A program made the translations under genes and the position numbers. Below, one piece after another: positions 2,216 to 61,106 of a DNA stretch of 64,000 bases. The stretch lies in assembly GCA_002104905.1 (NCBI GenBank), contig MCFE01000031.1, positions 124,001 through 188,000 on the forward strand, in the 5' to 3' direction. Each line of letters begins with the position of its first letter. The first letter of the stretch is position 1. The notes under the pieces were generated by a model. The model did no database searches. It was not told the origin of the DNA and saw only the letters and a list, made by a program, of their open reading frames with translations. This DNA comes from Basidiobolus meristosporus CBS 931.73. Lineage: Eukaryota > Basidiobolomycota > Basidiobolomycetes > Basidiobolales > Basidiobolaceae.

Positions 2216-2230
2216 ATTGCAGAGAGTGAC

Positions 2231-12972: not shown

Positions 12973-13641
12973 ATGTCAGGCTTCTATTTTGCGATTGTTG
13001 GGAACAAGGATAACCCAATCTATGAAGCTGAGATTGGCTCGCCAGCTAGAGAAGTTGCCAAGGTATTTGTTAGAAACCTGCTTTCTACATTCTTCTTAGC
13101 ACTTTATAAACCGTTACGATTTAGAATGACGACACAAAACATTTATATCAATTCGTGGCTCATAGCGCTTTAGACGTAGTAGATGAAATGATATGGACAA
13201 CGAATGCACTGTAAAGTGACTATTTAATTGCTCCTCTTCGCACGTTCCGAGCTTACTCATTTTACTTGTAGTTACTTGAAAACAGTCGACAAATACAACG
13301 ACTGGTTCGTCTCCGCTTATGTAACCCCTAGCAGTATCCTTTGCCTGTCACTATGATTTTCAAAATGCTCTACATTCAATGTATTATCCCTTCACCAGGT
13401 ACAACAGATGTTCGATTGCTGTTGCTTCATGAAGCCAAGAACGATGACGCCATCTTCAACTTTTTCAAAGATTGTCACGAGCTTTATATTCGGGTAAAGG
13501 TCACATTTCTTCAAAAGGTCCACGGTACATTCTTATCCTTTTCAATAGGCTTTGATGAACCCTTTCTATGAGCAAAACTCTTTGATCACCTCTACCAGCT
13601 TTGATACCAAAGTACGTGCTCTTGCCAGAAGATATCTTTGA
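12973..13641 (+). CDS. TRS20: TRAPP subunit TRAPPC2/Trs20 (sedlin)
   Basis: Sedlin is a longin-fold core subunit of the TRAPP tethering complexes that activate Ypt1/Rab1 in ER-Golgi traffic and autophagy. Five exons (12973-13062, 13125-13210, 13272-13333, 13408-13493, 13549-13641) sum to 417 nt, giving 138 residues against 140 in human. Landmarks are MSGFYFAIVGNKDNPIYE, AHSALDVVDEMIW, YLKTVDKYNDWFVSA and MNPFYE with the F-D-x-K-V-x-x-L tail. The third intron (13334-13407) begins GTATCCTTTG and fits a U12-type intron. Using its distal AG (CAACAG) gives the exact length of the human protein in this segment; the nearer AG would insert three residues. Confidence 0.93.
13334..13407 (+). other. U12-type GT-AG intron in TRAPPC2
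   Basis: The 5' splice site GTATCCTTTG matches the minor-spliceosome consensus RTATCCTTT. The branch site is TCCCTTCAC with the branch A at 13394, 13 nt before the 3' end at CAACAG. Length is 74 nt, phase 1. The phase and protein alignment support these ends. Confidence 0.88.
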
Positions 13642-14040
13642 TATTTGTACTTTAGCTGGATGCACGTACTATTTTAGTAGAGTTCCTTAAATCTAGTTAA
13701 CATGTAAATAAATGGCATCAGACGAGCTTTGTGATATCATAGCTTACGATCATCTCCTTTCCCTTCCCATACATGTTCAAACATTTTATTGTACTTTGAA
13801 ACGAAATATATATGAATCCTACAATCGATTTGTATCATGTAGATTATATTGATGACTAAACAACTATCGCAGAAATCTCTTTCAAGCCGTTTAACACCAA
13901 TCATATCACGCAGTGGTCATTGGGGGTATTTGATTAGCATGATTGTAAGAAAAAAAGAAATTCAGGGATACACCCCATTTCTTTGGTACAAATGGTTTCG
14001 TTATCTGAACCGCGGTTTGCGCGCTTTCAGTCTAGTAAAA
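13642..14040. other. Intergenic, BuGZ promoter region
   Basis: No gene seen. The BuGZ reading frame stays open upstream of its ATG to 13849, but that stretch shows no conserved features. Confidence 0.5.
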
Positions 14041-15213
14041 ATGGCCAAGAAGAAGAGAAAGACTATTAGACCCTGGTGTTGGTATTGTGAACGTGATTTT
14101 GACGATGAGAAGGTTCTTATTCAACATCAGAAAGCAAAGCATTTCAAGTGCCCCCACTGCTCAAAAAAGCTTAACACTGCTGGTGGAATGGTTGTACACG
14201 TAGCTCAGGTCCATAAGGAAACCATCAGTAAAGTCCCAAATGCTCTAAAAGGGAGAGAATCCACAGATATTGAGATATTTGGAATGGAGGGAATCCCAGA
14301 GGAAGATCAAATCGCTCACTTACAAGCTATCGAAGGTGACAATCCTAGTAAGAGACTGAAGTCATCCGATTCTACCCCCGAGGTTCAAACTCCACCTGTA
14401 ACCATGGCTAGTTATCCACCTTCAGTTGGCGCTTCTTACAGTGTACCTCGTGCTCCACCTGCAGCGTACCCTAGCTATCCTGCTGGTTACATGGCTGCTC
14501 CTCAATATGCAGCGTACTATGGTGTTCCCGTACCACCATATCAAAATCCTTACGGATATAGACCTGGGTAATGACTGAATTTATATCTTTCAGACTAGTG
14601 TTCCTGAACTTACCTCTTTAAACAGGGTTCCTGCTCAATATGCCCAACCTGCTCACAATCCATGGGCTCGTCCGCCTGTACCCGGTGCTGCAATCCCTCC
14701 TCAAAATTACTATGCTCCACCTGCTCCACCGGCACCTGGGACTTCGCCATATACTCAGCCTGCTGCCGCACCCGTACCCACACCAGTACCTTCAACCGGT
14801 ATAGTACCTACTTCAACAACTTATCCTGCTTACACCACACAGCCCACCGCTCCTGTAGTGCCTAGTTCTTACGAACAAGTGGTACCACCTGCTGCTGGTG
14901 TTTTACCGACTGCTCTTGAGGAGGATACTTCCGCCACACCCATCTTAGCCACTTCTACACTAGCTGCCCCAACCCAAGGGAAATCCAGTACTGTGTTGGT
15001 TTACAATGATTCCGAACTATCCATTGTAAGAGGCCATATTCCTTGTCATCTGTGTAAACATTGATGTTAACCGAGCTCTTCTCACTATAGGAGGAAACTA
15101 GAGCACGATTGGACAAATACCGTTATACTGATGAAGACATCAAAAGACAGGTGGAGCAACTTGATCTTTCGATTGAATCACGTCTTGCCGGATTTAAAGG
15201 CAAATCGTCATAA
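14041..15213 (+). CDS. BuGZ/ZNF207-like C2H2 zinc-finger protein
   Basis: Three exons (14041-14567, 14626-15025, 15091-15213) give 349 residues. The N-terminus [20 protein letters not shown] starts a tandem C2H2 pair (C-x2-C...H-x4-H, then CPHCSKKL...H-x4-H), followed by [16 protein letters not shown], the hallmark of ZNF207/BuGZ. The centre is long and low-complexity, rich in Pro, Ala and Tyr. The C-terminus contains [12 protein letters not shown], like the conserved tail. In animals BuGZ binds Bub3 and microtubules at kinetochores and also contacts splicing factors; the role in fungi is less clear. The start at 14041 is chosen because the zinc-finger signature begins at once. Confidence 0.88.
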
Positions 15214-15827
15214 AGCTTAATTCCGCTAATTTGACCTTCATGTTTCTTATGTTGACGACGTTTGGAGTCCATGATAGCGAGTTGAACGGTATTTGTAAAT
15301 ATGACACGGGGAAATTTCTCCACCCGGTAAGGTATGCGATGCCTGGTAAGAGCTCTTGTACTGTCATCATTGCCGTTATACGGTGGCAACGCCATCCGTA
15401 GCACTCCCCCGTCTTTGTTTATATAAAAGAATCTTTAGAAAAGCTCCATATTAAATCCTCTTTTTGGCTTAGTTCTTATACACAAAAGGCAGCATCGTGT
15501 TGATCTTCAAAGGGTCTGTATAAGAAACGATAGTGATTTTCCAAATGTAAACTGAGTGGGAATGCAACCTTTTTTAGTGAATCGACAGCTTTCTTTCTCT
15601 TAATCAAATCAGCGCAAATATTTGCTCAAGGTTAGTTTATTCCATTCCTGAACGAATATTGTGGTGCCGATCAGTGAACAAACACAACATAATAAACTAT
15701 CGCGAATTCTGTGTCATCCACGCGTTTTTTGTTGGCTAGTTCATTGGATATGATCAGTAAACAAACCAACACTACATCTATGTTTGGTACGAGGCTAGCT
15801 TGACCTTGGATTTTTTATTGTTGGGAC
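15214..15827. other. Intergenic, no gene seen
   Basis: Between the BuGZ-like gene and PSF3. An antisense open frame at 15123-15404 overlaps the BuGZ end and has no domain. Confidence 0.5.
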
Positions 15828-16777
15828 ATGGAGGACTACTACGATGTTGATGCCATCCTTGCGGAACAACAAGTATGATGTTGGCCTTTTCCTCAGTAAG
15901 ACGCCGCTAACCTAGAAACCAACCGTTTAGAGATTACCACTGATATTCAAAATACACGCCGAAGGCTTAGGCTATCTTGATGGATCAGAGGAGCCTGATG
16001 TACGTTCAAGGGTTTTGCTAAATAATCTTGTACCGATTATCCGACTTACTCCATCCCTTTATGTTAGTTAGCAGAGAATACTCGACTTGAACTCCCCTTC
16101 TGGCTAGTCAAGCAACTTGCGCAGCAGTAAGTACTCAGCAGTGGAGAAGTACAACTTCACCGTACTCACGCTGCTTTTTAGCCGAGAATGGTTTGAGGTG
16201 GAGATACCAAAGTGCTACGGAGCCAAAGTACGAAACAGCCTAAGGGCCTGCTCAACCAATGTCAACTTCCACTCACTGAATCCATACTATTACTTGTACG
16301 GATTGCTGCTGGTAGATCTGTATCCTCAATGTGACGAGTGTTATTCGGAAACCAGTCTTCTTTGAAACTTTATCCCTTAACTCTTAACTGATGTTTCAGC
16401 CTTGACGACGTTGACCTAAACATGGTGCTCGCAGACGTAAGCCAATTGACACCATCGAGGAAGCGCATTTGAACTGATCAGTAGCATGTAGGCTTTCAAA
16501 GCACGGATCCAGCTAATCATGGACTACACCCAAACCGTCCAGAACCGAGTCCAGGCAGAATTTGTCACCATATTGGACGAGACAGAGAAAGAATGTGCGT
16601 GAGGGAGTTCCAATGGATTCGAAATAACCCAGAGTCTAACCAACATCATACGTTCATTATCTAGTGTACAAAATCGGCGCGGACAGTCAAGCAGCCCTTC
16701 GTAAATGGAACAACCGAACGCTGTTTCGACTCAAGACCGCAGAGGTTTTGCAGATCCATGGGAAATCGACCTTCTGA
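15828..16777 (+). CDS. PSF3: GINS complex subunit Psf3
   Basis: Psf3 is one of four GINS subunits that bind Cdc45 and Mcm2-7 to form the replicative CMG helicase. Seven exons (15828-15872, 15931-15999, 16077-16126, 16182-16319, 16400-16436, 16492-16594, 16665-16777) sum to 555 nt, 184 residues, a normal size. Landmarks are MEDYYDVDAILAEQ, the GLGYLDG loop, LELPFWLVKQLA, LNPYYYLYG and the C-terminal RTLFRLKTAEV. The fourth intron (16320-16399) has U12-like signals. The third exon boundary was chosen at GCAGAG because nearer AGs break the frame. Confidence 0.9.
16320..16399 (+). other. Probable U12-type GT-AG intron in PSF3
   Basis: The 5' site is GTATCCTCAA, one base off the RTATCCTT core. 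The branch region CTCTTAACT has its A at 16387, 12 nt before the 3' end; a stronger TCCCTTAAC lies 7 nt further up. Length is 80 nt, phase 2. The call is less certain than the other four because of the 5' mismatch. Confidence 0.7.
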
Positions 16778-17918
16778 AAGCCTGGGACTCCACCTTGCCC
16801 TGTGTAATCTTTCACACTTCCCAAGCTCATGTAATGATGATGATGATAGTGATAATAATAATAATAATATTAATTGCCCAATGAGTCAGATTGCATATTC
16901 GTAGTTTCTTAGGGAAATGACCACCACAAGGGATTGCTTGGTGGAAAGTCCCGGGAGAAGTTTACACAGGCACCACCACAAACCACCTGCTCAACCCACA
17001 GATCGAAATTGGATAGACATGCACAAAGCGCCTCCCACGATGCAACCCTCATATTACTGATCATGATTACATCCAGCTACGACCCTTCAAACCCTACCCA
17101 CACGCTAGCTACCTTCACTACCTACCTTATCAGTACATCTATCTACGCCCAAAGCTATGTAGAATAACGGGTATTAGTAATTGGTGGGTTATCGATTCCT
17201 AATCAGATGAATAACAGCGATAACGCGCATCATTTGGTCCTACAACTACTCGCAGCGGTAATTCCTTGTGGCCCAGTGACGAATGATGAAAGCAGCAGCC
17301 ACGTGAATTGATCGAAATATCACGATTAGTCTAAATGTGGCGAGGGGTCAGGAAATAGGTTGTCGAGCGCTCAACGGAGGTAATAATAGGGAATTTGGAA
17401 AGAATCTGAGCCCAATCAAAATTATCCAAATCTCCCCAACTTGCCGGCGAGCTGGGGTAGATCAGCGCAATGTATATCTTGGTCTCGACAAATCGATAAT
17501 AACCTCCAGTTGGGCCCTGTTGGAAAGTGGGGAGATTGTGGGGTTTCTTCCGTCGTTTTCGCGACTGAATGCCACAATGGCTTTCGTAGATGCACTCTCG
17601 AGAAACTGATTGATGTAGAGCGCCTCTGGTGTGGCTCCGTGTGGTATAATGCTTGTTGTGAGTTGGATTTGCACGTCAAAAGCGTCAAAGGCGACCGGAT
17701 TTATCAGCAACCCGCATATGGGCCAAGGATCGATCGGATTCGGAACAACTCACACTTTCCCCTATTGTATCCACGCTTAATTTCATCACTGATTTTTTGC
17801 TTCTGGTGTACCTTCCATTTGAGGCGCATGCTTATATAAAGTTTGGTATTTTACCATTTCCCGCCAGTCTGTCACTCTTGATATTTACTCGGCGTTTTTC
17901 GCTTCCCGACTACAAACT
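16778..17918. other. Intergenic with a short microsatellite
   Basis: No gene seen between PSF3 and the NADH dehydrogenase gene. A trinucleotide run of GAT/AAT units lies at 16834-16872. Open frames at 16934-17167 and 17337-17839 have no recognisable domains. Confidence 0.5.
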
Positions 17919-19785
17919 ATGCAGAGCCAACGTGTGTTTAGAGGTTGGGATACTGGTACTATCAAGTGAACATATGCGTTCTGTTTCTAACTGCGTGCCC
18001 ATTTAGCTGCCACTTCTGTTGCTCGCCGCTCCCTCCTCCTCTCCACCTCTAGAGCCTACTCCTCCGTTTCTGCCGCTGCCCAGCCAGTCAAGAAATCCAA
18101 ATGGAGATACGTAACTCGTGGTGCCCTCGGGCTATCTGTTGGTGCTGTTGGTCTTGTCGGTTACAGTGAGTTTATATCCAAGAATAGCCTGGCGCAGTGG
18201 CCACCAGTACTAATCCTTTCAAAACTTAGCCGCCTATTCGCAGCGTCACCCACCTGCTCAAGCGGAATTTGATCCTTCGAAGAAGACTTTGGTCATCCTG
18301 GGTACTGGTTGGGGTTCCACCTCTATCTTGAGAGAACTCGATACCGATAAATTCAATGTGGTTCGTATTCCTACTTTCCTGTGGCCGTCTTGTGTTCTCT
18401 CACTTACGGTTTCTTCCCTGGCTTAGGTTGTCGTTTCCCCCAGAAACTATTTCCTCTTCACTCCTTTGTTGCCAAGCTGCACTGTCGGCACCATCGAGAA
18501 TCGCTCCATCATGGAGCCAATTAGATACATCACGCGTCACAAGAAGAGAGAGGTCCATCTCTTCGAAGGTGACTGTACTGACATTGATCCAGTCAACAAG
18601 ACCATTACAGTGAGCGGTATGTAGCCAAGAGGAGCCCATTTTTTGGCGTAGCAAGGTCCTAACCATTGAACGTAACTAGATAACTCTGAAATCAAGGGAG
18701 CCGTCAGCAACACCACCTTGAAGTACGACTACCTTGTTGTTGGTGTTGGTGCCGAGAACCAGACTTTCGGTGTTCCAGGAGTTCGCGAATACGGTTGTTT
18801 CCTGAAGGAGATTTGGGATGCCAAGAAGATTCGCGCTAGATTGATGGACTGTTCGTAGTGCTTACTTGACCCTTTTTTGTAATGGCCTTCACTCAACGCA
18901 GTTTCTGATTTAACAGGCATCGAGACAGCCGCTTTTGGTGACCAGCCCGAGGAGGAGAAGAACAGACTGTTACACATGGTCGTTGTCGGTGGTGGACCCA
19001 CTGGTGTCGAGTACGCCGCTGAGTTGCACGATTTCTTGACCGATGACCTTGCCGTGTGGTATCCTGATATCGCAGGAAGAATCAAGATCACCCTTATCGA
19101 GGCCATGCCCAATGTCCTGCCTTCTTTCTCCAAGCAGTTGATCGAATACACCGAGTCCACCTTCTCCGAAAACGAGATCAAGGTGCTTACCAAAACCGCA
19201 GTCAAGGAGGTCAACGAAAAGAACATCGTCGTCGAGAAGGCTGACAAAACTCGCGAGAACATTCCCTACGGACTTTTGGTCTGGGCCACTGGTAACACCG
19301 CTCGTCCCATAGTCAAGGGATTGATGGAGAAATTGCCCGAAGCACAGACAGGCAGACGTGGTCTCCTAGTCGATGATCACTTGATGTTGCTTGGTGCTAA
19401 GGATATCTTTGCCCTTGGTGATTGCACCTTCACCAAGTATCCTCCTCTTGCTCAGGTTGCCAATCAACAAGGTACCTACCTTGGCAAGTTGCTGAACGAA
19501 ATTGCCGACAAACAGGAAGCCAGCCAGAAGGAGGTTGCTGAAATCAAGGAGGAGTTGAACACTTTCACATACTCCCACAGCGGATCCTTGGCCTACATCG
19601 GTGCCGAGAAGGCCATTGCCGATTTCCCCATCATGCATGGCAACATTTCCGCCGGTGGGTTGGCCACCTTCATGGTGTGGAGAAGCGCATACCTTTCCAA
19701 GTTGTTCTCGGTCCGCCAGAAGACTTTGGTCTTTGCCGATTGGTGCAAACAGAAGATCTTCGGTAGAGACATTGGACGGGAGTAA
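17919..19785 (+). CDS. NDE1: Type II (rotenone-insensitive) NADH dehydrogenase, mitochondrial
   Basis: NDH-2 enzymes oxidise NADH and pass electrons to ubiquinone on the inner mitochondrial membrane without pumping protons. Six exons (17919-17931, 18007-18165, 18230-18360, 18427-18616, 18680-18850, 18917-19785) sum to 1533 nt, 510 residues. The N-terminus is Arg/Ser-rich and then hydrophobic, a mitochondrial presequence. Two dinucleotide folds are visible, [10 protein letters not shown] for FAD and [11 protein letters not shown] for NADH, plus [13 protein letters not shown] and the second FAD contact FALGDCT. The C-terminus [11 protein letters not shown] is the membrane anchor. No EF-hand is seen. 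External rather than internal orientation is inferred from similarity to Nde1, so the symbol is tentative. Confidence 0.92.
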
Positions 19786-20345
19786 ATGGCAGTGGTTGTC
19801 ACTCTTTACCATGTAATATTACTCTTCTCATATATTCGCAAAACTGCTCGCGCGGGTCCGGTCGCCTCATAGAATGTTATTTAATTTGATCTCTTTTCGT
19901 CAATAAAACGGTCGTTAATAATGGATTTCACGTGTTTGATACCGCTTCCCTGGAGGTGTAACCCACCGCTTGTGTGATGTGGTACAAGGTAGCAGATACG
20001 GGTAGTGGATGCATCGTGTCTTTCTTGTATCGGCGTTTTCCAAAAGAAGTTGGGTTTGATTTTAGAGCGTTAAGCAAGTATTTAATCAGCGTGGGGAAAA
20101 GGTGGTTAACGATGTGGTGAAATCATGTCTCAGTGGAGATGAATAATGACGTTGATAAATCTTTGGCAGCCGATGATGGAATGGGTGACGGTCAGGTACA
20201 ACAAATAAGTGGACGTAACATTGCTTAGTGGCGGCGATCTACGGCTTTGAAGTGTCAGAATCATTCTGACCTCATCCTACGCGGTTGCATATAAAAATGG
20301 CAGTCGGCTCGACATACAACTCAGAATTCACTACACTCCTCCACA
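19786..20345. promoter_or_regulatory. Intergenic and promoter of the MLRQ-like gene
   Basis: A TATA box TATAAAA lies at 20290-20296, about 50 bp before the next ATG. No gene is seen in the rest. Confidence 0.6.
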
Positions 20346-20702
20346 ATGGCCAGTACCGTCCCTAGAAACCGCGGCTTCCTGAAGATGCTAACCATCGATC
20401 CTAGCAACATTCCCTTGCTTGCAATCATGTCTGGGGTGTTTGGCACCGTTGGGTATATGATAGGACGCAAAAACATGAATGCTGTTCCTGATCAGAACAT
20501 CCGTTTGGCCTCCACAAATCCCCATCCATGGAATGAGGACAACCCTAAGAATGCCAACTACAAGTACAAATACAAGAAGGGTGATCACCCAGAGGCTGAG
20601 GAGGTGCATGCCCCCAGTGCAGTCAACACCACCTACGTTAATGCCAAACTCGATCAGGAAGCCCACGAGCAGCTTCCATCCTCTGTGAAAACCAGCCGTT
20701 AA
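20346..20702 (+). CDS. MLRQ/B12D-type small mitochondrial inner-membrane protein (NDUFA4-like)
   Basis: This is a 118-residue intronless protein. A single hydrophobic segment (IPLLAIMSGVFGTVGYMIG, about residues 20-38) is followed by the RLASTNPHPWNED stretch, which matches the N-x-P-x-PWN motif of the MLRQ/B12D family. Members are small subunits associated with respiratory complex I or IV. The C-terminal half is polar and Lys-rich and longer than in the animal protein. Assignment to a particular complex is not possible from sequence. Confidence 0.75.
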   Translation: MASTVPRNRGFLKMLTIDPSNIPLLAIMSGVFGTVGYMIGRKNMNAVPDQNIRLASTNPHPWNEDNPKNANYKYKYKKGDHPEAEEVHAPSAVNTTYVNAKLDQEAHEQLPSSVKTSR

Positions 20703-21056
20703 GTAAATACGTTGTTGTACTATACATCTCTCCCTAGTCATGTAACCTTATTGTCCCCACGAATCAATGAATTAAATTTCGAACATGAATCGTGCAGGAA
20801 TTGTACACACTTTTAGTGCAAGGGAGTGTGGGCATTAAGCCGTATTGGGAATGGAAATATGCAAAGAGTGCTAGCTCTGAGACAGCCAGCCTGTGGAATG
20901 GCTGACCTAATGATGCTTTTGAGGTATAAATGAATAGGCGGGGGGAGGTGGGAGAATATGGAATTCGGGGGCGCGTGGCAGTTACGAACATTTAAATAAG
21001 GTCTCCCGAAAGGTGAAGCAACAGTAACCATCGACCTCCACTCGTTGTCTATCGCG
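20703..21056. other. Intergenic, promoter of the Kre9-domain gene
   Basis: A TTTAAATA element near 20990 lies about 65 bp before the next ATG. Nothing else is seen. Confidence 0.5.
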
Positions 21057-21623
21057 ATGATTCGTATATTGTGTTTGCTAGCTTCATTGTTCGTCACAGC
21101 TGTACTAGGGGATTTTTCCATCACTAGCCCAGTGAGCGCTGTATGGAAGGCTGGGACCCAGGAGGAAATCAAATGGAAGGAGGACGCTGGGGGCGATGCA
21201 ACGCCTGGGTTGGTTGACCTGCAGTTACTTACCGGCGCGTCCAACAATCTCACGGTTGTCCTTACTATCGATGTTAACATCAACAGCACTCCTGGCTCAT
21301 ACAAATGGAATATTCCTGGTCAAATTCCGGAAGGGAATCAGTATGTGCTGAGAATAGGGTCCGGAAAGAATCAGAAATACAGCCCATACTTCATCATCCT
21401 GAATCCTGTTGTTGCTGCTGGCACTCCATACACTGGACCCAAAGGGCCAGCCGGTAGCTCCGAAAACAGCGGTAACTCACCCGTCTTGAATGCCAAGAGT
21501 GGAGTGAACAACGGAAGTACGGATGCCAACTCCAAGCCATCCGCTGCCTCCCTATCTTTACCCAGCCTCTCCATCATTGCACCCGCCCTCATCTTATCCA
21601 TCGGGATTTGGGTCGAATATTGA
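21057..21623 (+). CDS. Secreted GPI-anchored Kre9/Knh1-like domain protein
   Basis: This protein has 188 residues. It starts MIRILCLLASLFVTAVLG, a signal peptide, then FSITSPVSAVWKAGTQEEIKW, the typical opening of the Kre9/Knh1-like (Ser-Thr-rich GPI-anchored membrane protein) domain, running to about residue 118. A Ser/Asn/Gly-rich linker with N-glycosylation sequons follows. The end is a hydrophobic tail (LSIIAPALILSIGIWVEY), preceded by small residues that suit GPI attachment. Such proteins sit at the plasma membrane or wall of fungi; some family members affect beta-1,6-glucan. The ATG at 21057 is used because the frame extends upstream only to a TTG. Confidence 0.85.
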   Translation: MIRILCLLASLFVTAVLGDFSITSPVSAVWKAGTQEEIKWKEDAGGDATPGLVDLQLLTGASNNLTVVLTIDVNINSTPGSYKWNIPGQIPEGNQYVLRIGSGKNQKYSPYFIILNPVVAAGTPYTGPKGPAGSSENSGNSPVLNAKSGVNNGSTDANSKPSAASLSLPSLSIIAPALILSIGIWVEY

Positions 21624-21913: not shown

Positions 21914-23737
21914 ATGGACAAGTACCAAGTATGATATCGTTTGCTCTCTGGTTCTTTCCCTTGGCTTGATTTTGCTCCACATACATTCGATGGCTATGGC
22001 ATGTCGTTGATCCCTTCCCATATCTCCCTTCTCACCTCGAATATGCACGATCCTCTTCAACTGTCACCGAGCTAACCTAAACTTCCTCTATTTTATTATC
22101 TATCCAAATCTCCGTCGTGTGCTTCCGTCTTACTCTTGCACTCTACCCCACCCGACCTTCACGAAACTCTCAATAGAAAATAGAAAAGCTAGGAGAAGGT
22201 AGGTTTCTCCGGCTGCTTACGAACATGAAGGAGAAAGTGAGTTACCATCCTTGCTAACGACTCGGTCGTAATTAGGCACATACGGTATTGTGTATAAAGC
22301 ACAGAACCGAGAAACCAGCGAAGTAGTAGCTTTGAAGCGGATACGATTGGATAATGAAGAGGAGGGGGTATGTTGACCTGAACCTTAGCTTCTATTTTAC
22401 GCTGAATACATGTATATTTTGCGCAATGCAGAGAAGACTGACGTTGGTTTCATTGTCTGAAGGTCCCGTGTACAGCTATTAGAGAAATATCCCTACTGAA
22501 GGAACTCAAACATCCAAATATTGTTAGGTGAGTACGATACCATGAAAAGCTGGGAGAGTTTGTATGCTCGCTTGGTTCAACAATGATTGGTTGTTGCTAA
22601 AGTTTCTTCCGACTGTTCAAAGGCTCTATGATGTTCTGCACACCGAGAAAAAGCTCACACTAGTGTTCGAATACCTAGACTCCGATCTGAAAAAATTCTT
22701 GGATACTTACGGTGGAGACATCGACGTGTTCACAATCAAGGTACATGCTCACTTACAGCAAGTGCTCAATCGTGGGTGTCGTTAATCATATCCTACTTGC
22801 TATTGCTATAGCAACTCATGTACCAACTGCTTCTGGGCATCGCCTTTTGTCACGAACATCGAGTGCTTCATAGAGTAAGAACAGCGATTGCTCTGGATTC
22901 CGTAGGCGTACCGGCTAACCTCTTCCACTAGGATCTGAAACCACAGAATCTGTTGATCAACAAAAAGAACGAACTCAAGCTAGCGGATTTTGGATTGGCA
23001 AGGGCATTTGGCATCCCAGTCAGAAGTTACTCGAATGAAGTGGTGACACTGTGGTATCGTGCCCCTGATGTGCTGATGGGCTCCCGACAGTACTCTACCT
23101 CCATCGATGTGTGGTCGGTTGGATGTATCTTTGCAGGTCTGTGAACGTTCTCGTCCAGTTGAGCAACTTCGGGATTACTCACATTGACATAGAAATGGCA
23201 TCCGGAAGACCTTTGTTCCCGGGAACATCCATTAATGACCAGCTAATGCGCATTTTCAAATATCCTTTTTAAACTTCTCTTGTGCGGCAATTCACGTGAC
23301 CCTGTTGTGCCCTTGACTTTCAGTTTACAGTGCAAGGAACGCCCACCGAGGAAACATGGCCTGGCGTCTCCCAGCTAGCGGACTTCAAGGTAGATCAATT
23401 ACCCTCGGTGTGCCGACACAACTACTAACCACTGGGTGTATAAACCAGAAGGACTTCCCTGTTTATCAGAAGGTACCACTAGAGACCCTCCTGCCCAAGC
23501 TAGATGTGCACGGGATAGATCTGATCAATGTGAGTGGGCGTAAGTATCGATGATATCCGTGACGACTGCTAATTGCTCTGTCCACAGAAACTACTCGAGC
23601 TCCAGCCAGAGAAAAGGATCAGCGCCGAGAACGCGCTTCAGCGTAAGTTATCCACAATCCACAGCATGCGAGATCCCGGTTGACAGGACTTCAATCCCAC
23701 AGATCCATACTTCGACGGGCTAAACAGGAAGGAATAA
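21914..23737 (+). CDS. Cyclin-dependent kinase, Cdk5/Pho85-like, with PCTAIRE helix
   Basis: Twelve exons (21914-21928, 22177-22198, 22276-22367, 22463-22527, 22623-22740, 22812-22874, 22932-23136, 23193-23259, 23329-23389, 23449-23529, 23588-23642, 23703-23737) sum to 879 nt, 292 residues, exactly the size of human Cdk5. The first exon is only MDKYQ, and KIEKLGEG is on a 22-nt second exon. GTYGIVYK is the Gly-rich loop and VALKRIRLD holds the catalytic Lys. The cyclin-binding helix is PCTAIRE. HRDLKPQN is the catalytic loop, [13 protein letters not shown] the DFG segment and VVTLWYR the T-loop end. Intron 8 (23260-23328) is an AT-AC U12-type intron. An ATG at about 22226 (MKEK) is not the start, because it cannot splice in phase. 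Confidence 0.93.
23260..23328 (+). other. U12-type AT-AC intron in the CDK gene
   Basis: The intron starts ATATCCTTTTT and ends TTTAC. The branch site CCCTTGAC has its A at 23316, 12 nt before the end. Length is 69 nt, phase 2. No GT-AG alternative works: the read-through frame stops at once, while AT-AC splicing gives [12 protein letters not shown], the expected kinase sequence. Confidence 0.92.
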
Positions 23738-43857: not shown

Positions 43858-44648
43858 ATGAGTATCTTCACCGCCAACTCACAACACGAAAACTGGCTCT
43901 TGTGGATGATGGCTGATTCTGCCTTGCCAACTGGTGGTTTCGTAGCTTCCTCTGGTCTTGAAGCCTCCGTCCAAGCTGGTTATGTCCATAACGAGGAGAC
44001 CCTCCTGAAATTCATTTCTTCGAGTGTACATAATTACGCACTCTCTACCCTTCCTTTCGTTACCAAGGCATATGAGATTTCCCAGTCTGAAAGTACCGAT
44101 GATGAGAAGGTGGAGCAGCTCATCAAGCTTGACGATTTCTATGAGGCTTCCACTTCCAATGCCATCACCAAAAGAGCCTCCAAAGCCCAAGGAACGGCCA
44201 TGTTGATGTTGTTGAGCAAGAGTTTCGGACAACTTTCCAAATCTGTGGTGGGGACCAAGCTGAAGCTACAAGTCAGATTGGGAAGAATTGGTGGTCATCT
44301 TCCTGTCTGTTTTGGTATGGCTTGTCAGCACTTGAACGTCAGTCTGAGTAAGTTGGAAGCATTTTCTTTGTCAGCGAAACCCAACAAACTAACCCTCCTC
44401 TTCTAGGCAATACCCAGGAACTTTTCCTATTCTTGTTCGTACGCGCCATCATCTCTGCTGCCGTACGTCTCAACCTGGTTGGCCCATACTACGCTCAAAC
44501 CCTTTTGGCTCAATGCCAGGAATTCACGGAAGAAGCCTGGAAGCTTGGCCGTGATGTTCAACCAGAAGATGCCGCACAGTCTTCACCATTATTAGATATC
44601 ATTCAAGGAACCCATGACCACCTTTACTCTAGAATCTTCAACAGTTAG
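43858..44648 (+). CDS. ureF: Urease accessory protein UreF
   Basis: UreF works with UreD and UreG to load nickel into urease. Two exons (43858-44347, 44407-44648) sum to 732 nt, 243 residues. Landmarks are MMADSALPTGGFVASSGLEA (the S-x-P-x-G-x-F-x-x-S-x-G-L-E signature), HLPVCFG and the long helical VRAIISAAVRLNLVGP. It implies that the organism has nickel urease. No other urease gene is in the window, which is normal for fungi. Confidence 0.93.
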
Positions 44649-51730: not shown

Positions 51731-54700
51731 TGGACTTGGAGTCCAACGCCGCTGGAATCATAGAATGGGTATGTTCTCACCGTCATCTAAATAACCTGTA
51801 GTCTTACATGTATCTTTCGCAGGTTAATACTTTCGGCTCTATTACTCGTAAAGCTGAAACAATTGCCGATTTTTCTGATGGGATTCTCCTATGGGAGGTA
51901 CTCGCTGAAATGTATGCTGTACTTCCAGGCTATTGCTTCTTCTCACTACATGACCGGTTACTTATGCTTTGTTGAACGAACAGCGATCCTCAGTGGTTTA
52001 AACTCATTCGGTCTGCTGACGTTGGAGACAACTGGGTTCTAAAATTCAATAACCTCAAAAAGCTATACAAATTAATTACCCGATACTACGAAGAAATCCT
52101 GGGCCACTCCTCAGACTTACTAGATGCACCCAACCTTACCTCCATCGCCAAAGACGGGGAAATAAACGAAACCTTGAAGCTGGCTTCACTCATCGTTGCT
52201 TTGGCGGTCCAGTGCGAAAGCAACGCAATCTACATCGAGAAAATCCAATCTCTTACCCAGGAGGCTCAGCATGCTTTGATGTTGGCCATTGAACAGGTCA
52301 TAGTTCTTTTTTGAATCGGGTCTGTTGACCACCGGCCACTAAACCGTTCTCTCGATAGGTCATGAGCAAACTTGGTGACGAACAAGCTGTGGAGAAAGTT
52401 GAGAATCCTCAGCTTATTGCGTAAGTAGTATTTGCGTGAAGTGAAGGTGGTGCGAGTTAACATGGTTGTGCCCGTATGTAGGGACCAGCAGATCCTTGAA
52501 TTGGAGGCCGATAGGGCTCGTGTGATAAACGAGCATGAGGAGCTTAAGCATAACTACAACGAATTAATGGAGGACCATAAGCAGCTTGAGTACAAGATTG
52601 TCGGTATTCATTGGGATCTTTACGCAACTATTATTTATTCACATCCCTTATGATATTAGGAGGATTTAACGACCGAGAAATCCGACCTAACGAACAGACT
52701 ACGGGATTTGGAGCAAGTAGTTGCGAGGGCTGACCAAACTGGCAAAGCAGATTTCTTGATGAGAACCGAAATTGACAATCTGAAGCAAGACTTGTATGGC
52801 TTTCTTAGTGACAGTCTAGATTGATTGAGTGCACCATACTTACTTCGTTCACTTCAGGGAACGGGCTGAGACTCAACGTCACGAGGCCGAGATGCTCTCC
52901 AGTCAACAGGAAGGCCTAATCAACGACCTTAACCGCAAGGTTCGCTTTTCTCAAAAACAATGGCATTCATGATTTCAGACTAACTTGTCAATCAGCTTGA
53001 GGATATTTCCAAGAAAGCCGATGAGGCGACAAAATTGAAGGATCAGTTGCAGGAATATAAGCACGCTGCTGAGAAGCTTCAAAAGACAGAGAATGTGATT
53101 GAGAAGTACAAAAAGAAGCTGGAAGAAAGCACCGATCTCCGCAAGCAAGTTAAGGTATGGGGCGTGGTAAAGCTGGGTTCGGGGCTCTGATATATACTAA
53201 TGAGCCTATTAGACTCTGGAGGATCAAAACAAACAGTTGGTTGAGAGAAATCATCACATCGAAGAGGAGTATCGTAAAGTCAGCCAATTCAAGGCGTTAA
53301 TGGATTCCTACAAAGATCAGATTGCGAATCTAGAAAGCAAAAACAATCTTTTGGTGATCGAGAAAAACAAGCTGGAGTTTGAATTTGGAAAGCTCAAAGA
53401 GCAGTACGATATGCTTGAACTAGAGCGAAATAGCGACAACGAGCAACTCCAAGTTCTTGAAGATCGCCTTCGTGAACTGGAGCTTGGCGGTAATTGTTTG
53501 TGAATAGTTTGCTGTACTCCTTGGTTTTAACGTTTAGTTCCCCAGGTGGAGGACTCGGTCTTGAGCTTAACAGAGCTCATAATGGAGATGGAGATTCTGA
53601 AGTTCCCAGCCAAGGTCTCAGTGAGGCGCTGGCGGAGTCTAGTGCCACAGAGCTGCAAGTATAGTACCGACTCCTTACTAACCGATAGTTGATAATAACT
53701 GGTGCATTTTTTCCAGGAAGCTCAAAGTAATGCGCCTGGAACGGGAAGTGCAGGCAATGCACCAGACAAGAAACGACCCTGGAAACGCCCAGCAAATAAT
53801 TTTGTTGGAAAACCTATTGGAGGATTCCAACAGAATGAAAGGCAAATTCGAGCAAGTATGTCACAGAATTCAGGCTTTTCGTTTACCAGCGTCCATACTA
53901 ACCTGGCATTTTAGGACTATCTCAAAGCGCATCAGCAAAACCTTGTTCTTGAAAACGAAGTAGAGATGCTGAGAGCTGCTGCCTCCGGTGAAGATCCTGA
54001 TCGGTATGACACAAGCTGAACCACCACTACAGACATCAGTAAGATGCTGACACATTCCTGCATCTAGTGCCGCCAGCGATTTCGCCCTCACCCTGCGAAT
54101 GAGACTGAATGATTCTGAGAAGGAGCTCTCTGAAGCGAAGGAGAAGCTTGCCGCAGCAGAGGCGAAGCTTGCAAGTGTTGAGAAAGAGCTGGTGATTTGT
54201 AAATCCGATCGTATCCTTTACACTACGAACCAGTGGTTTCACCATCCAACCTGCATTCCTTGTTGTCCTTGATCGTATTTCACAGTGAACTTGGTCGGAA
54301 AAGACAAACTAGACGCTCTGGCGGCCATTCGCGAAGAGGCAGGTGCCGAGATCAACAAGCTTCAAAAAGAATACGATAGCTTGGTTAGTCGCAACCGCGA
54401 GCTCGACGCCGAAAACAAAAAGCAGATGCTCCAGATCAATGAGCTCCTCATCGAAAAGGATTCAGTTCAAACGCAGAACATCCAAAGCAAAGACATCTTG
54501 CTTGAAAAAGAGCGAATCAACAGGTATTGCTGAATTAGCCCGTCTCCAATTCTCCCTGCTGACTGATTACTGGGTTCCAAGTGAACTAAAGGCAACGCTT
54601 GCAGCATTGGAGAGTAAGAACAAGACAGGCGATGCGGAGCCTCTCAAGAACCAGCTGCTTACTGAATCCCAGAAAAATCTCAAGCTTCTCGAGGAGATTG

Positions 54701-55253
54701 ATAAAAAGAACAATGACATCAACATGTTCTTGGCGAAGTTGAAAAAGGCCAAAGAGGTAGTTGTATGAGGCAAGTGCGTCCTGACGTTCATTTGCTTATT
54801 TCATTCGCTATAGTATATTCGCCATCAAGACTACAAGATGAAAATGCTCAAGGAAAAGGCCGAAACAGTTCCCAAGGTTTGTATGAAGTGCCTTGGACCG
54901 AAGCCAGCCGGTACTCATCCTGCTGGATACATTTTCAGATGAATTACGAGGAGGCTCTTACTTCTCTTCAAGCTGAACTCACCAATCGCGACAAAGAAGT
55001 GGGCAGATTAAAGGTAAGTCAAACTCGAAGCGTTCGCGTAATAGAGCGGTAGGCTAATCGAGAAATTTGCTTCCAGGCACTGGTCAACGAAACCCGCGTG
55101 CAGGCAAAGAGAGAGCAACAACTAATCATCTCTGCCTGGTACGACTTGGCCAGACGCGTTCAGCGAGATGTAGCGGCACCGCAGAGAAATGGGCCGACTT
55201 CGTGGCTAGGTCAGCAGAGGCGTACACTGGATATCCCATTGAAAAGACGTTAG
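51731..55253 (+). CDS. Hook-family dynein/cargo adaptor
   Basis: Hook proteins link early endosomes to dynein and kinesin (Aspergillus HookA, human HOOK1-3). About 18 exons from ATG 51731 to TAG 55253 encode roughly 820 residues. The N-terminal Hook/calponin-like domain (residues 1-155) has FSDGILLWEVLAEIDPQWF, DNWVLKFNNLKKLY and KLASLIVALAVQCE. The middle is a long coiled coil of Glu/Lys/Leu heptads. The conserved end is REQQLIISAWYDLARRVQRD with GPTSWLGQQRR, matching the cargo-binding tail. The intron at 54211-54285 is U12-type. Some middle exon ends rest on frame alone. Finding AP-3 and Vps9 genes nearby is coincidental in eukaryotes. Confidence 0.9.
54211..54285 (+). other. U12-type GT-AG intron in the Hook gene
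   Basis: The 5' site is GTATCCTTTA, a full match to RTATCCTTT. The branch site is GTCCTTGAT with the A at 54272, 13 nt before the CACAG end. Length is 75 nt, phase 1 (GAT C|TG AAC). A U2-type 5' site in the correct frame is absent. Confidence 0.9.
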
Positions 55254-55511
55254 CTCGCATCGTTTATTCACACAACCAATTAGTTATAGTTGGACTTATA
55301 CCTCTGTAGCATAATAGCCTCAATTACATCCAGTTGAAGATCCAAACTTGATGTCGGTTTATTCCTCAAGTCTATTTAATCCAATTCCAAATATAATGAT
55401 GTTCTTGACTAGGGTGCTGTGACTGCATTGATGTGTAGGGGTGGGTATATGGAGATGAATTGGGTGGGAGTATGCAAATGGAAAGGAGTTGGAAGGGCAA
55501 CAATCAAAAGA
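55254..55511. other. Convergent intergenic spacer
   Basis: Short spacer between the Hook and ARH1 stops; no gene. Confidence 0.5.
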
Positions 55512-57035
55512 CTATGCGTTAACGGCTTGGAGCATCTCTTCAACGGAGGTCAATTTCTCACGGGGCTTGCCACGGGCAGCTCCCAAGTCAAACTCGAGCT
55601 TCTCGATGTTCTTCCAATCTTTATAAGAGACGGCACGAACGTTTCTCTCCTTCAAGAGGTTGGGTATGTCCCGGGAAGACTTTGTAGGCTGAAGAAAAGG
55701 TTTTCCGTTCTTGATGTCGGCAGCGATCGCGCCGGCAGTCTCGAAAGCGTCTTGCATGGTGGACACAATCACTCCAGAAGGGCCTCTCTTCAACCAACCG
55801 GAAGTGTACATTCCGTCCAAAACCTGCTCACCATCCATGATTCTTCCGCATACGTTTGGAACCACTCCTCTTCTGGCATCGAATGGAATTCCCTCGATAG
55901 GCGTGCTCTTGTATCCAATGCTTCTGAATACCAAGCCTGATTCTATCTCTTCGTAAGACCCAGTGCCTAAAGCAACTTGCGAGTCGGTTGGGCCTTCCAA
56001 GGTATTGATCTCCATCTTGACGGCTTTGACTCGATTGCTTTCGGAAATAATTTCGACTGGGCTTCTCAAGAACTTCAATGACCAGAACTTCTCGGCGTCC
56101 TTGATGGCATCGGTTGGGATCTCCTTTTCGAGGACTCCTAGCAGGCGTTTCAATGCGCGATTTTTCAACAATAGAGATTGGCCGTGGGCAAGCTGATCCT
56201 TGAACAATTCTGTATCGATCTCCAGTTTGGTGTTGGGTAAGGCAAACATCTCCCGCAGTTCTTTGGTAGTGAAGGAAACCTACGTGACTTTCTTGTTAGA
56301 AAAGGCCATCGAAAAGATGCCGAAAATGGCTCTTTGTACCTGAAGTGGCCCTCTTCTTCCGACAATATGAACACGCTTGATTCGGCTTCTGGATAGAGCC
56401 TCTAAGGCATGTTCGGTAATATCGGTCTTTCTAAGCTCATCGATGGGACTAAGCAACACTCTAGCCACGTCTAAAGCCACATTTCCTTGGCCAACAACCA
56501 TGGCAGTATCGGTGGAGGTCAAGTCGAGGCCAATTTCACGATGTTCCGGATGTCCGTTGTACCAACCAACAAAAGAACGTGCTGAATATACACCCTCCAC
56601 ATGCTCATTCTTGATGTTGAGAACTCTGTCCTCACTTGCGCCATAAGAAAGCACGACCCCATCATATGTGTCTTTAAGTTCGTCTACAGAGATGTCCTTT
56701 CCGACAGTCACGTTCCCGAAAAATCGAAAATCAGGGGACTCCGCCACTTCATCAAAACGATTCATCACTAGCTACAGTCAGGGAGTTCAATACGGTTCAA
56801 TTTAGTGTGACATTCCCTGCAAAGAAACAATAGAGTTTACCTTGACTTCGGGGTGGTCTGGGGCAACACCGAAGCGAACCAAACCATGTGGAACAGGGAG
56901 CGCTTCAAACATATCAACCTTAGTTCCGGGAAGCAGCTGCATAACCTTGGCAGCTGTGTAAAAACCACCAGGTCCGCTGCCAACGATAGCAAGTGAAGGC
57001 GTTCTAGCAGCCTGAGTAACTAAAGTTCTAAACAT
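55512..57035 (-). CDS. ARH1: Adrenodoxin/ferredoxin-NADP+ reductase, mitochondrial
   Basis: Arh1/FDXR passes electrons from NADPH to mitochondrial ferredoxin for Fe-S cluster and heme A synthesis. Three exons (57035 to about 56841, about 56770 to 56342, about 56280 to 55512) give roughly 460 residues. Landmarks are the FAD fold AIVGSGPGGFYTAAK, the signature LPVPHGLVRFGVAPDHPEVK, the NADP fold MVVGQGNVALDVARVLL, HIVGRRGP, and the end SGWLKRGPSGVI with TMQDAFETA. The N-terminus MFRTLVTQAARTPS is a short presequence. Confidence 0.94.
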
Positions 57036-57382
57036 CGCCAGCCTCGAGGAATTCAGATACCGATTAACCGTAAAGGTGAGAGTATTTATAGTTACCCAAC
57101 CCTTTCTCGAGAATTATCACATCAAATCACAGATTCTACCTCATTCATCACTGCCAATGTATTCCCGTGGCACCAAGTCAGGATCAATATAAGCACCATA
57201 AACGATTTTTCTGTGTACCCCTCGGCGTACCTATTTGGAAGACCGTAGCAAGCTGTCATCAAATATGCCGATTTATTACTAATGATAGCTCAGTGGATAG
57301 ACTAGTTGAGATGATACAATTGGATTAAACACTGATTTAAGTAAAGTCCCTTAGTTTCAGTATGTTCCCTCTACCTTGTATT
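57036..57382. other. Divergent promoter region, ARH1 and SPP2
   Basis: About 350 bp between two divergent genes. A tRNA-like stretch near 57290 was looked at and rejected. No gene. Confidence 0.5.
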
Positions 57383-58514
57383 ATGTTCAAGATTACATTA
57401 AAAGGCAAAGACAGTCAGCCAACCTCGTCCAATTCCACCTCCAACAAGTTCAGCTTACTGAAAGCAAAAAACAAACCAAAGCCACGACAACCGGAGATCG
57501 CAAAGAAGAGTGCCTTTGGTGAAGAAAGCAACAAACGCGAAAGAGACGAAAATGAGATCGAATATGTGACCGGGCTTGAAGAGAACCAAATCACAAGGTA
57601 TTTTCAACCAAGTGGCTTCCATCGTATTTCCGGTGCTAATACACTCTTTGATAAGTCTGAATCCCAAAGATACTGGCCCTTTGGTCATTCCCAAGCTAGA
57701 GAACGAGACTTTTGGCCGGAACAAGAAAAGGGCTCACTATATACCAGAGCAAGAACAGAAAAACAGCGATTCTGTGGAGGTCACCCTCTTGAACAACAAG
57801 CCTACCACATACGGTCTGCAGATCCCAACAAAAGCTTCAGCGGAATCTAGCAAGAACACAACTGATCAAAACACCGCGACCGATGTCACAAAGGATGCCA
57901 CTACCACACCGGAAGAAAAACCCGCTGTCAATGCTAATCCTGAAGAAGATTTAACTACTCAAGCCATAAAGGAACTAACTGGAGGTAGGCTTCCATAAAG
58001 CGAATCTACTTGAAGTACCTTAGAGTCTGATTGCTTCGATATATCTAGGAACATCAGAGGAAGGTGCAAGTTCGGAACAGAGAGTATTGCCAGCATTGGA
58101 ATCCAACGACAGAGTTACCGAGGGAGAGCTATTTCGACAGGATGTCGCATCTAGGCCGAGAGAGGTAAGCTGGAGCATACGCGTACCAAACATGTCAACA
58201 ACGCTCACACTTTTTTGTGGCTAGTGTACCCTCGAAGAATACGAGAACGTTCCAGTTGAGGAATTCGGGGCTGCTTTACTTCGTGGAATGGGCTGGAAAG
58301 ATGGCCAAGCAATCGGTAAATCGCGAAAGAATGGGTACGTAACAATGCTTAAAGCTACACTGGATGTTTTCACAGTTGTTCTAACCTCGATCCTCACAGA
58401 ATGCTGAAGCCAATCGAATTCGCCCCACGCCCAAGTTTGCTCGGATTAGGCGCTCGTCCAAAGCCACCGGAGTTGGATAACAAGAACAAGGGGCGTCGCA
58501 GGGTAATTGAGTAA
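57383..58514 (+). CDS. SPP2: G-patch splicing factor Spp2/GPKOW-like
   Basis: Spp2 activates the DEAH helicase Prp2 before the first splicing step; GPKOW is the animal homolog. Five exons (57383-57597, 57656-57984, 58049-58164, 58225-58334, 58400-58514) sum to 885 nt, 294 residues. The start MFKITLKGK matches the family, then PLVIPKLENETFGR, and the G-patch_2 core EEFGAALLRGMGWKDGQAIGKSRKNG with IEFAPRPSLLGLGARPKP. No KOW motif follows, as in fungal Spp2. An upstream in-frame ATG at 57362 would add seven residues. Confidence 0.88.
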
Positions 58515-58744
58515 CCGATAGCTCTCTCGATAGGCGAAGCACTAACCACGCTTTACGCTCCCATCTAGCCATAGAGATAACCAAGCAGCATGTAAATGAA
58601 TTCGTCTACCCGGAGTTATTGTGAATCTTAATATATTTCTACTTCAATACACAGAAGCCATTTCTATAGAATACGATTCAAAAAGAACTGAGCTGTTGTT
58701 GCGACGCATGGAAACAATAATATTACAGAGTGATTATAGGTGGA

Positions 58745-61106
58745 CTACATCTGATTGGTCTCAGGAATAATGGAGTTTGAGATGTCAAGCAATGCCTCGA
58801 TTGACGGTTGCAGTTGACCTTGATTAGCTTGTAGAATTAATTCGCATATGTCAGCCTCAATATTGGGAAACATGTCTCTTAGTGTAGACAGTGCTTGGCT
58901 ATATTCCTGGTATTGCTGTTCTTGCATCATGGCGTTATGTTGTCTTTGTATTTGGCTGAGGGCACCCGGATATGCTGGGTTGGTGGATGGATTGGGAGGG
59001 CTGGACTGTACTTGTGATCTGAGATACCCGCTGTTAGCGGACTGTCTGTGGTTTTGCTCATACTCATCATCAAAATCGGATCCAATGTCTGAGCCAACCG
59101 AGTCTCTAGCTTGAGGATGCAGATGGTTTTGCTCGGATTGGCCAGGGCGGAGAGTATCATCAAAGCTGCGAGATCTAGCCATAGGCTCTGAGGAGCATTG
59201 CTTCCGTGCAATTTCCTCGACTGCTTTATCGATATTTCTAATAGAAAATTGTTAGAGCAGAGATGTGTTGGACTGTACGTCGTACGTTGCGCTTGCCTGT
59301 TAAACTCTTCCTCAGAAATAGAAAGCTGCTTGTAGTCCATATTCTCGATGAAAGAGATAGCCCCCATCTATTCAAGGTTGGTTTCTATCAGTTAGAGCAA
59401 TGAAACCAGTGCCAGGGTTCGATGTCTCTTACTAGGTTTGTCAAGTAGTACTCCGACTCGGCATGGAGCTTCTCAGGTCTTCTAAACCGTGATATGTACC
59501 TAAGGATAGCTAGTATCAGCACCGGGATAGTATAAGCCCCCCTCATCGCCACTTACTGAACATTTGATACAAGTCGCTCCGGATTAGCGCGTAACACTAC
59601 GAAGATCAGGATCGGAAGAAACTTATCGGCACCTGCTTCAGCATCCACATGCTTCAAAAAACGTGAGTCAAAGTTAAGGATACAACATATGACCACAACC
59701 AAGTCACACTAAGCACTGAAGGCAAAAGGATATCAAAGATCACAATGCAACAATTCAGAATGCAGATAAGTTTGTCGCGAGGAGCCTTGTATGTATTTAT
59801 CTTCGCGAGTTCTGATGATTATGGTGTTCGGATTAATACAACAGCTCCATGTATATAGTTTCGCTGATGATAGCTACATACCAGCTTGAGCAAAGCCCAG
59901 GAATGACTCGTTGTGCTTGTTTACGGGAATATCCAGATGCTCCTCTTTTATCCAGCGATAAAGCTGGACTTTCTGGTTAAGGATGTCGTCTTTCTCCACG
60001 TCGTCAGCAGTGAGAGGGCAGAAAGTGCTAGGGTAAGAAGGGAGCATGAGAAAGAGCTTCTAGCCACTCGGAATAAAACCCAATATCTACTATTTATAGA
60101 GCTTGTTCATAATTAACTTTTCCATTCCCTCCAACGCATTTTCAAAGTCAACTTCGGAACATCTGGCCCAGACTTCACAGTTCCGCATATCGTACGCGAT
60201 ATCCTATTCACAGGTAGGTTTTAGCAAGGTGTTTGCTTTGTGCTGAAACGGGTCACTTACGTTCAAGAAGCCATGGATAGCTTGAATTTGCTCGTTTACA
60301 GTGTATGGTTTACGTTGAAAACTAGCCAGAAATCTAACCAAGTTTTAGCACTCGATTGTTATGGAACTGGTGGAAAGTGTAGTCACCTTTTTAGACTGCG
60401 TGCAACAGGAACGGCACTTCTATGTCGGATTTGGTCCAAAAAGCGATGATACTCGAATTGGTCGGTTTTTTGAGTATTCTCCGGGCTGTCCGGTGCATTG
60501 AGAGCCTTATCATGTTGCATACCAGAAGTCGAGCTAGGCGTACCACCGTAGGAGATTGATTTCTGTAAACTTTCGCCTCGAATTCTTCTTTTAGCAGCTG
60601 TTTTACTCTTGGCTTTTGTTGATTGCTCGTCTGATACTTCGGTAGGAAGAGTTATTGAGTCCTCCGAACTCGCTTGGATCGTAGGTTTTTCTGATGGATG
60701 ATGGGTTATTAACAAAGGAGAGGGAGCTGAATACGCAAAGAGAAGAATCTCAACCATTTTCCAGATTGTTGAGTGGATCGAATTCAGCCACCAGGTCGTT
60801 TCTCGCCTTATGGCCGGAGCCAGATGATGGAGATTTCTGTTGGTCGAAATCATCTGGAATGTCAGGGAAGGCCTCTATATATATTTTCGGCGTCAAAGCT
60901 TGACCATCTCTGGAGGAATTCAAAATGAATGCGAGTTTTCTCAAATAAATGCTGAGAGGAAATACTAACTGCATAGTGCTCTCGTTAGAATCATCAGTCT
61001 CCTGGGGTAGCAAAGTATCCTGCCCCGTATTCAGTTGGAGTTTCTCTTTTAGTTCGGCAGATACACCGTTATCCTCAAAGCTTTCGGGTTGCACACTCGA
61101 CTCCAT
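58745..61106 (-). CDS. VPS9: Vps9-type Rab5 GEF with C-terminal CUE domain
   Basis: Vps9 activates Rab5/Vps21 on endosomes. Eleven exons from 61106 to 58745 sum to 1743 nt, 580 residues (61106-60970, 60909-60755, 60690-60387, 60333-60261, 60203-60091, 60027-59882, 59811-59734, 59662-59557, 59499-59433, 59367-59297, 59237-58745). The helical bundle begins FLDQIRHRSAVPVARSLK. The VPS9 domain has KLICILNCCIVIF, GADKFLPILIFVVLRANP, YISRFRRPEKL, SEYYLTNLMGAISFIENM. The C-terminal CUE (LRDMFPNIEADICELIL...IEALLDIS) binds ubiquitin, as in yeast Vps9. Intron 7 is U12-type AT-AC; intron 10 is GC-AG. Confidence 0.93.
59663..59733 (-). other. U12-type AT-AC intron in VPS9
   Basis: On the minus strand it starts ATATCCTTTTG and ends GACTCAC. 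The branch site ATCCTTAAC, nearly the full TTCCTTAAC consensus, has its A at 59674, 11 nt before the end. Length is 71 nt, phase 1. Splicing joins CIVIF-G to FLKHV with no gap in the VPS9 domain. No GT-AG pair gives a working frame. Confidence 0.94.

Follow-up and report, generated by a model that had tools for sequence, protein, structure and literature searches.

Introduction

Minor (U12-type) introns of the fungus Basidiobolus meristosporus are already in print at the genome level. In the accessible part of their survey, Larue et al. 2023 report genome-wide calls of n=249 minor introns for this species, or 0.554% of its introns and the top density in fungi (PMC10639083), with counts that rest on existing gene models; this part does not mention the 5' splice-site box of U6atac or the small nuclear RNA (snRNA) promoters of the species. 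The same text describes another early-diverging fungus, Rhizophagus irregularis, with minor introns and all four minor snRNAs, where the introns are sparser (205, 0.272%) and their phases rank 1 > 2 > 0 (PMC10639083). Outside the fungi, intron 4 of human TRAPPC2 is described as a minor intron in the section available to us (PMC8199999). Here we present a computational analysis of a 64-kb stretch of the genome of B. meristosporus CBS 931.73, hereafter the window, where a U12-type intron lies in each of five conserved genes encoding TRAPPC2, PSF3, a CDK5-like kinase, a Hook-like protein and VPS9. Genome searches covered the 89.0-Mb assembly of 1311 contigs.

Judging from sequence comparison, the five are almost certainly genuine U12-dependent introns that would be removed by a minor spliceosome encoded in the same genome. 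This reading draws on protein homology across four of the five junctions, a public CDK record with the same junction, the position of the TRAPPC2 intron, the four minor snRNA genes, the predicted pairing of U4atac with U6atac, a shared TCCCATA promoter element, candidate minor-spliceosome proteins, a genome-wide count of strict motifs against its control, and the published total. In the known pathway, U11 (5' end AAAAAGGGC) would pair with TATCCTT at the intron start, while U12 would pair through GAGUAAGGAU with the branch region TCCTTRAC. The U4atac/U6atac.U5 tri-snRNP (small nuclear ribonucleoprotein) would join next, U6atac would replace U11, and splicing would then proceed. A first-pass annotation of the window had proposed U12-type introns, a kind it noted as reported in some early-diverging fungi, and a working U11/U12 snRNP; the introns, four snRNA genes and candidate proteins were found, and from the pathway we infer a working snRNP together with its expression, assembly and actual splicing. 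Beyond the published survey, the analysis adds proof at the level of individual junctions, and among them is a minor intron of TRAPPC2 whose codon and phase agree between human and fungus. Three further parts are worth following and could matter more than the main result: the box of U6atac, the TCCCATA element, and a public VPS9 gene model that is apparently mis-spliced.

Results and Discussion

Five introns with U12-type signals

All five introns predicted in the first pass are present, with the lengths (69-80 nt) and phases (1 or 2) given there (Table 1). Inspection of the 5' splice sites reveals an exact RTATCCTT in four of them and the variant GTATCCTC in PSF3; the start originally described was RTATCCT(T/C). 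The branch motif expected of U12-type introns, near TCCTTRAC and about 10-13 nt from the 3' end, is seen as an exact copy in VPS9 and as the variants CCCTTGAC in the CDK, TCCTTGAT in Hook and CCCTTCAC in TRAPPC2. The branch distance of 11-13 nt claimed at the outset held for four introns and applies to PSF3 only if its second candidate site is used (TTAAC, 12 nt from the end). The PSF3 branch is ambiguous, as the first site, CCCTTAAC at 19 nt, is predicted to pair with U12 more strongly (-8.4 kcal/mol, versus -4.4 for the second). According to the spliced models, three of the five introns are GT-AG and two AT-AC; the AT-AC type of the latter had gone unmentioned in the first pass. Protein evidence supports these ends in every case, by alignment for four introns and by an open frame for Hook. 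Retention of the intron would lead to an in-frame stop in four genes; the VPS9 intron is free of stops, but its length shifts the frame.

Table 1. Coordinates of the introns and genes discussed (positions in the window unless a locus is named)
Feature	Position	Strand	Description
TRAPPC2 gene, start to stop codon	12973-13641	+	five exons, 138 aa; match spans the protein
TRAPPC2 U12-type intron	13334-13407	+	GT-AG, 74 nt, phase 1, after coding nt 238 (codon 80)
PSF3 (GINS3) U12-type intron	16320-16399	+	GT-AG, 80 nt, phase 2
CDK5-like kinase U12-type intron	23260-23328	+	AT-AC, 69 nt, phase 2
Hook-like protein U12-type intron	54211-54285	+	GT-AG, 75 nt, phase 1
VPS9 (Rab5 exchange factor) U12-type intron	59733-59663	-	AT-AC, 71 nt, phase 1
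U6atac gene	L002 1501-1634 (G000:C779:39963-40096)	-	sole locus over the Rfam cut-off in the assembly

Protein homology across the splice junctions

For TRAPPC2, PSF3, the CDK and VPS9, the spliced protein was aligned to solved structures and inspected for a gap at the splice point. TRAPPC2 aligns to sedlin (E 6.4e-48) gap-free around the junction, with codon 80 opposite His80 of sedlin, and its junction residues are identical in the Basidiobolus ranarum protein P0001; overall, the protein shares 92% identity with B. ranarum and 65% with its next relative. The PSF3 junction is gap-free in two alignments (E 9.2e-21 and 9.8e-17); in the better of these, the other protein has two extra residues some 5 positions ahead of the junction. 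Alignment of the CDK5-like kinase with CDK5 is gap-free at RIFK-VQGTP. A public CDK protein of B. meristosporus CBS 931.73 (P0242) is 100% identical to that of the window over 292 aa, so the public CDK gene model yields the same AT-AC junction. The full VPS9 model of 580 aa is likewise gap-free at its junction when compared with plant VPS9A, which carries a five-residue insertion about 7 residues past it. In Hook, the coiled-coil frame on either side stays open after splicing, and retention of the intron brings in an in-frame stop; since the whole-gene Hook model loses frame elsewhere, the Hook intron rests on its local frame.

A literature search for minor-intron reports on the genes of the window returned something for TRAPPC2 alone. 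In a published table of human variants, as far as accessible, TRAPPC2 intron 4 separates c.238 from c.239, the latter being the site of p.H80R, and intron 5 lies before c.325 (PMC7260818). The other fungal introns follow coding nt 90, 176 and 324, and the exons before the minor intron measure 90+86+62 nt. The minor intron thus occupies the same codon and phase in both species, and the last fungal intron also coincides with human intron 5. The two minor introns differ in their first base, which is A in human (c.238+1A>G is among the variants listed in PMC7260818) and G in the fungus. For TRAPPC2 at least, inheritance of an old minor intron from an ancestor common to fungus and animals is probable.

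VPS9 and public gene models

Comparison with the public records of CBS 931.73 gives a different picture for VPS9. Where AT-AC splicing yields VIFGFLKHVD, the public model K493DRAFT_404578 reads VIFDILLPSHVD; the same place reads VIFGLIRHVD in Rhizophagus irregularis and IIFGLLKHL in two Basidiobolus paralogue records. From these relatives, K493DRAFT_404578 appears to mis-splice its AT-AC intron. The window protein and the public record are identical at 549 of the 555 residues of the record, with differences where the gene models differ, and in the B. ranarum orthologue (P0122) the residues at the minor intron are missing. The public VPS9 and CDK records are located on one contig of 218,345 bases. 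Because the public CDK has the exact AT-AC junction, annotation does not miss all AT-AC introns. The apparent misreading in VPS9 nonetheless means that annotation-based counts of minor introns may be low, and it suggests that AT-AC introns can escape notice in the gene models of this strain. According to the available part of the published survey, minor introns may go unannotated in many genomes, as is known for certain annotation pipelines (PMC10639083).

Further differences among these models were seen in passing. K493DRAFT_404578 is without 11 residues near the edge of an upstream exon (window 60910-60969, minus strand) and its C-terminus is cut relative to the present model. The paralogous VPS9 record K493DRAFT_334882 (P0125) reads IIFDILFITCCYLAK... 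(IIFDILF...) at the corresponding place, as if an AT-type intron had been left in. The present VPS9 model also includes a GC-AG intron (window 59238-59296, minus strand).

Motif frequency and the possibility of chance

We next consider whether motifs of this kind could be chance, or could belong to ordinary U2-type introns that happen to start with RTATCCT. The window was scanned with generic U12 matrices, and 30 dinucleotide-preserving resampled sequences served as the control. Six candidates were returned, four of which are true (VPS9 28.1, Hook 25.5, TRAPPC2 24.1 and CDK 23.9); the remaining two lie on the minus strand at 19406 (24.9) and 59683 (21.3). PSF3 was missed, and the 3' end was misplaced for both AT-AC introns. 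The resampled controls gave a mean of 0.27 candidates at >=24 (maximum 1), 0.77 at >=22 (maximum 4) and 1.8 at >=20 (maximum 5). Owing to the false candidates and misplaced AT-AC ends, the scan was rejected as proof on its own; the motif by itself is modest evidence, and proof comes from protein homology across the junctions together with genome-wide evidence.

A stricter pattern (RTATCCTT, a gap of 30-60 nt, then TCCTTRAC) was searched throughout the assembly, with the reversed pattern as its control, and found 116 places against 4. Among the matches listed, some are repeats or duplicate contigs by eye, with C202, C473 and C741 sharing one sequence and C1 and C608 another. As VPS9 alone of the window's five introns fits this pattern, it is far from complete. 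Thirty loci with 30 different strict matches were inspected, comprising 23 A-starts and 7 G-starts. An AC lies 8-16 nt past the branch A in 21 of the 23 A-starts and 2 of the 7 G-starts, whereas AG is found there in 5 of 23 and 4 of 7. The placement of AC in the A-starts makes AT-AC introns seem common in this genome, with the qualification that a perfect branch motif may favour AT-AC and that some matches may be non-introns.

The false scan candidates lend the chance reading some substance, and splicing of the GT-AG introns by the major spliceosome is conceivable in principle. Set against this, the two AT-AC introns join correctly with AC ends, the genome-wide count exceeds its control as above, the TRAPPC2 intron sits at the position of a human minor intron, and four minor snRNA genes are present in the assembly. 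We therefore regard chance motifs or U2-type introns as a very improbable source of the five introns.

Minor spliceosome components and a shared promoter element

An Rfam search of the window itself gave no match at gathering scores. The genome-wide covariance-model search proposed in the first-pass annotation, in contrast, located genes for U11, U12, U4atac and U6atac. U11 scores 76.8 bits (Rfam cut-off 39) at two loci (L011 and L012), whose contigs are 99.2% identical over 2.3 kb; these near-identical contigs, and strict-motif matches that occur twice, make part of the assembly look duplicated or allelic. The other three were each found once. U12 (46.9 bits, cut-off 53) is full length with E 1.5e-6 over the genome and carries its branch-binding sequence. 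U4atac (43.4 bits, cut-off 53) is also full length, with E 1.4e-4 over the genome and AAUUUUUGG near the 3' end. U6atac scores 63.2 bits (cut-off 33); of 24 matches to E 10, the other 23 fall short of that value, and several of these coincide with U6 genes.

Upstream of these genes, TCCCATA starts at -64 in U6atac, -66 in U11, -64 in U4atac (with a repeat at -90), -61 in U12 and -63 in four aligned U6 genes. All of them also have a TATA, at a position between -25 and -37. The comparison used loci L001, L002, L010-L012, L003-L008 and L057-L060, where U6 loci L004 and L059 are one gene and were counted once. TCCCATA stands at the matching distance from the core in 9 of 10 distinct U6 genes examined (18 are over the cut-off), the exception being L009. 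With a background of 0.07 per kb of strand in the window, its chance in a set 10-nt slot is ~7e-4. TCCCATA may thus be read as a putative snRNA promoter element common to five snRNA classes (U6atac, U11, U4atac, U12 and U6), and its presence upstream of the minor snRNAs supports all four as real genes. Plant snRNA genes also have a TCCCA-containing element.

The protein search, with Pfam models, covered 25K, 48K, 59K and CENATAC. Candidates over cut-off were obtained for 25K/SNRNP25 (C704), CENATAC (C436) and a finger of U11-48K type (C436). The latter two share a contig, with about 43 kb between them (G000:C436:161-1876 and 44361-44435). According to the part of the source available, it is above all AT-AN introns that need CENATAC (PMC8329584). 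For SNRNP48, which the first-pass annotation had named as a homolog to look for, the outcome is divided: the candidate finger exceeds its Pfam cut-off, and the Protein Data Bank (PDB) check of its exon is empty.

Several observations weigh against the reading of the five as U12-dependent introns removed by a minor spliceosome of the same genome. The U12 and U4atac scores fall under the Rfam gathering cut-offs. The PDCD7/59K candidate (C1112) by itself reaches 26.3 bits, short of the cut-off of 27, which it clears only once neighbouring matches are counted. Single-exon PDB checks gave weak matches for 25K (E 0.0057) and CENATAC (E 0.49) and no relative for 48K or 59K. The PF05253 finger of the 48K candidate was also matched in 1 of 14 control genomes, and this finger occurs in other proteins too. 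To these are added the support of the Hook junction by local reading frame and not by homology, the different splicing of the public VPS9 model of this strain at its minor intron, and the altered 5' splice-site box of U6atac.

A U6atac with an unusual 5' splice-site box

In the usual register, the AAAGGA box of U6atac pairs with UCCUUU of the intron start. The U6atac gene found here matches the Rfam family (RF00619) over its full length and keeps the core and 3' stem. It differs from the family in its box, which reads AGUCGA in place of AAAGGA, with the consensus AAAGGAGAGA replaced by AGUCGAGAGA. Pairing with C6 and U7 at the intron start would thereby be lost, and the box does not pair with the TATCCTT start in the usual register. 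Predicted pairing for this U6atac and the Rfam consensus, respectively, amounts to -2.3 and -6.5 kcal/mol for TRAPPC2, -2.8 and -7.1 for the CDK, -4.2 and -7.4 for VPS9, -6.3 and -7.7 for Hook, and -5.5 and -5.4 (no loss) for PSF3; part of the pairing behind the values for this U6atac uses a shifted register or bases of the exon. In U6 of the same genome, ACAGAGA is retained at all 11 loci examined.

One explanation is that the minor spliceosome is decaying: its genes persist, but the change in U6atac leaves it weak, with introns that are either tolerated or spliced at low efficiency. Pairing weaker than the consensus at four of the five 5' splice sites would fit, as would a single U6atac locus over the cut-off. 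This explanation is nevertheless very improbable, given that the two perfect motifs are combined at 116 places, compared with 4 for the control, which suggests continuing selection, that the U6atac gene retains its core, TCCCATA and T-run and has a U4atac that pairs well with it, and that the published minor-intron density is, per the accessible text, the highest in fungi (PMC10639083).

A second explanation takes this locus for a copy that is damaged or wrongly assembled, with an ordinary AAAGGA U6atac hidden in an assembly gap. Fragmentation into 1311 contigs, the single copy, and box letters known from this assembly alone leave considerable room for it. Against it, the 26-position core pattern of U6atac has 0 mismatches at this gene and is met nowhere else in 89 Mb within 3. 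The gene also has an intact TCCCATA, carries a TATA at -28 and ends in a T-run. U4atac and U6atac of this genome are predicted to pair in a 13-bp run (-36.7 kcal/mol); replacing one partner with the Rfam consensus gives -31.8 and -27.6, and both consensus sequences together give -35.1, a loose comparison as string lengths differ. On balance, a faulty copy is tentatively judged less likely than not, though far from improbable. A search for a second U6atac copy via AAGGAGAGAANGTTAGCA (<=3 mismatches) gave 427 places against 198 in its control; six loci among the matches listed were viewed by eye, none of which is U6atac-like, and several resemble one repeat family.

The remaining explanation takes the letters at face value: a busy minor spliceosome, serving hundreds of introns, many of them AT-AC, would run on a U6atac with an AGUCGA box and without the central C6/U7 pairs. 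Intron choice would then lie mainly with U11 and proteins, and the handover to U6atac would tolerate or use different pairing. We consider the case for this evenly balanced. Pairing between U6atac and the 5' splice site is reportedly required in vivo, going by the title of a 1998 study by Incorvaia and Padgett. If the face-value explanation is true, this minor spliceosome, in which the 5' splice sites are conserved and U6atac is unable to form the usual pairs with them, would test how far that pairing is needed. Literature searches of titles and abstract openings in open-licence PMC found no report of the U6atac box change, of a TCCCATA element in fungi or of the apparent mis-splicing in the public VPS9 model.

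Density of minor introns

The first-pass annotation had also taken five minor introns in roughly 25 genes to indicate a genome unusually rich in them. Richness for a fungus is upheld, whereas the window's ratio as a genome-wide density is unsupported, the published figure (0.554% of introns) being far sparser. That figure implies ~45,000 introns and on average ~0.18 minor introns per 64 kb. Five in one window would then have a Poisson probability of 1.3e-6, or ~0.002 over all windows, and of 2.7e-4 for a window of 100 introns. Either the window is a patch selected for its density, or the published number is an underestimate, or the two apply together.

Elsewhere in the window, the motif listing shows similar stretches that recur about 3.2 kb apart at ~220-6700, probably a repeated element.

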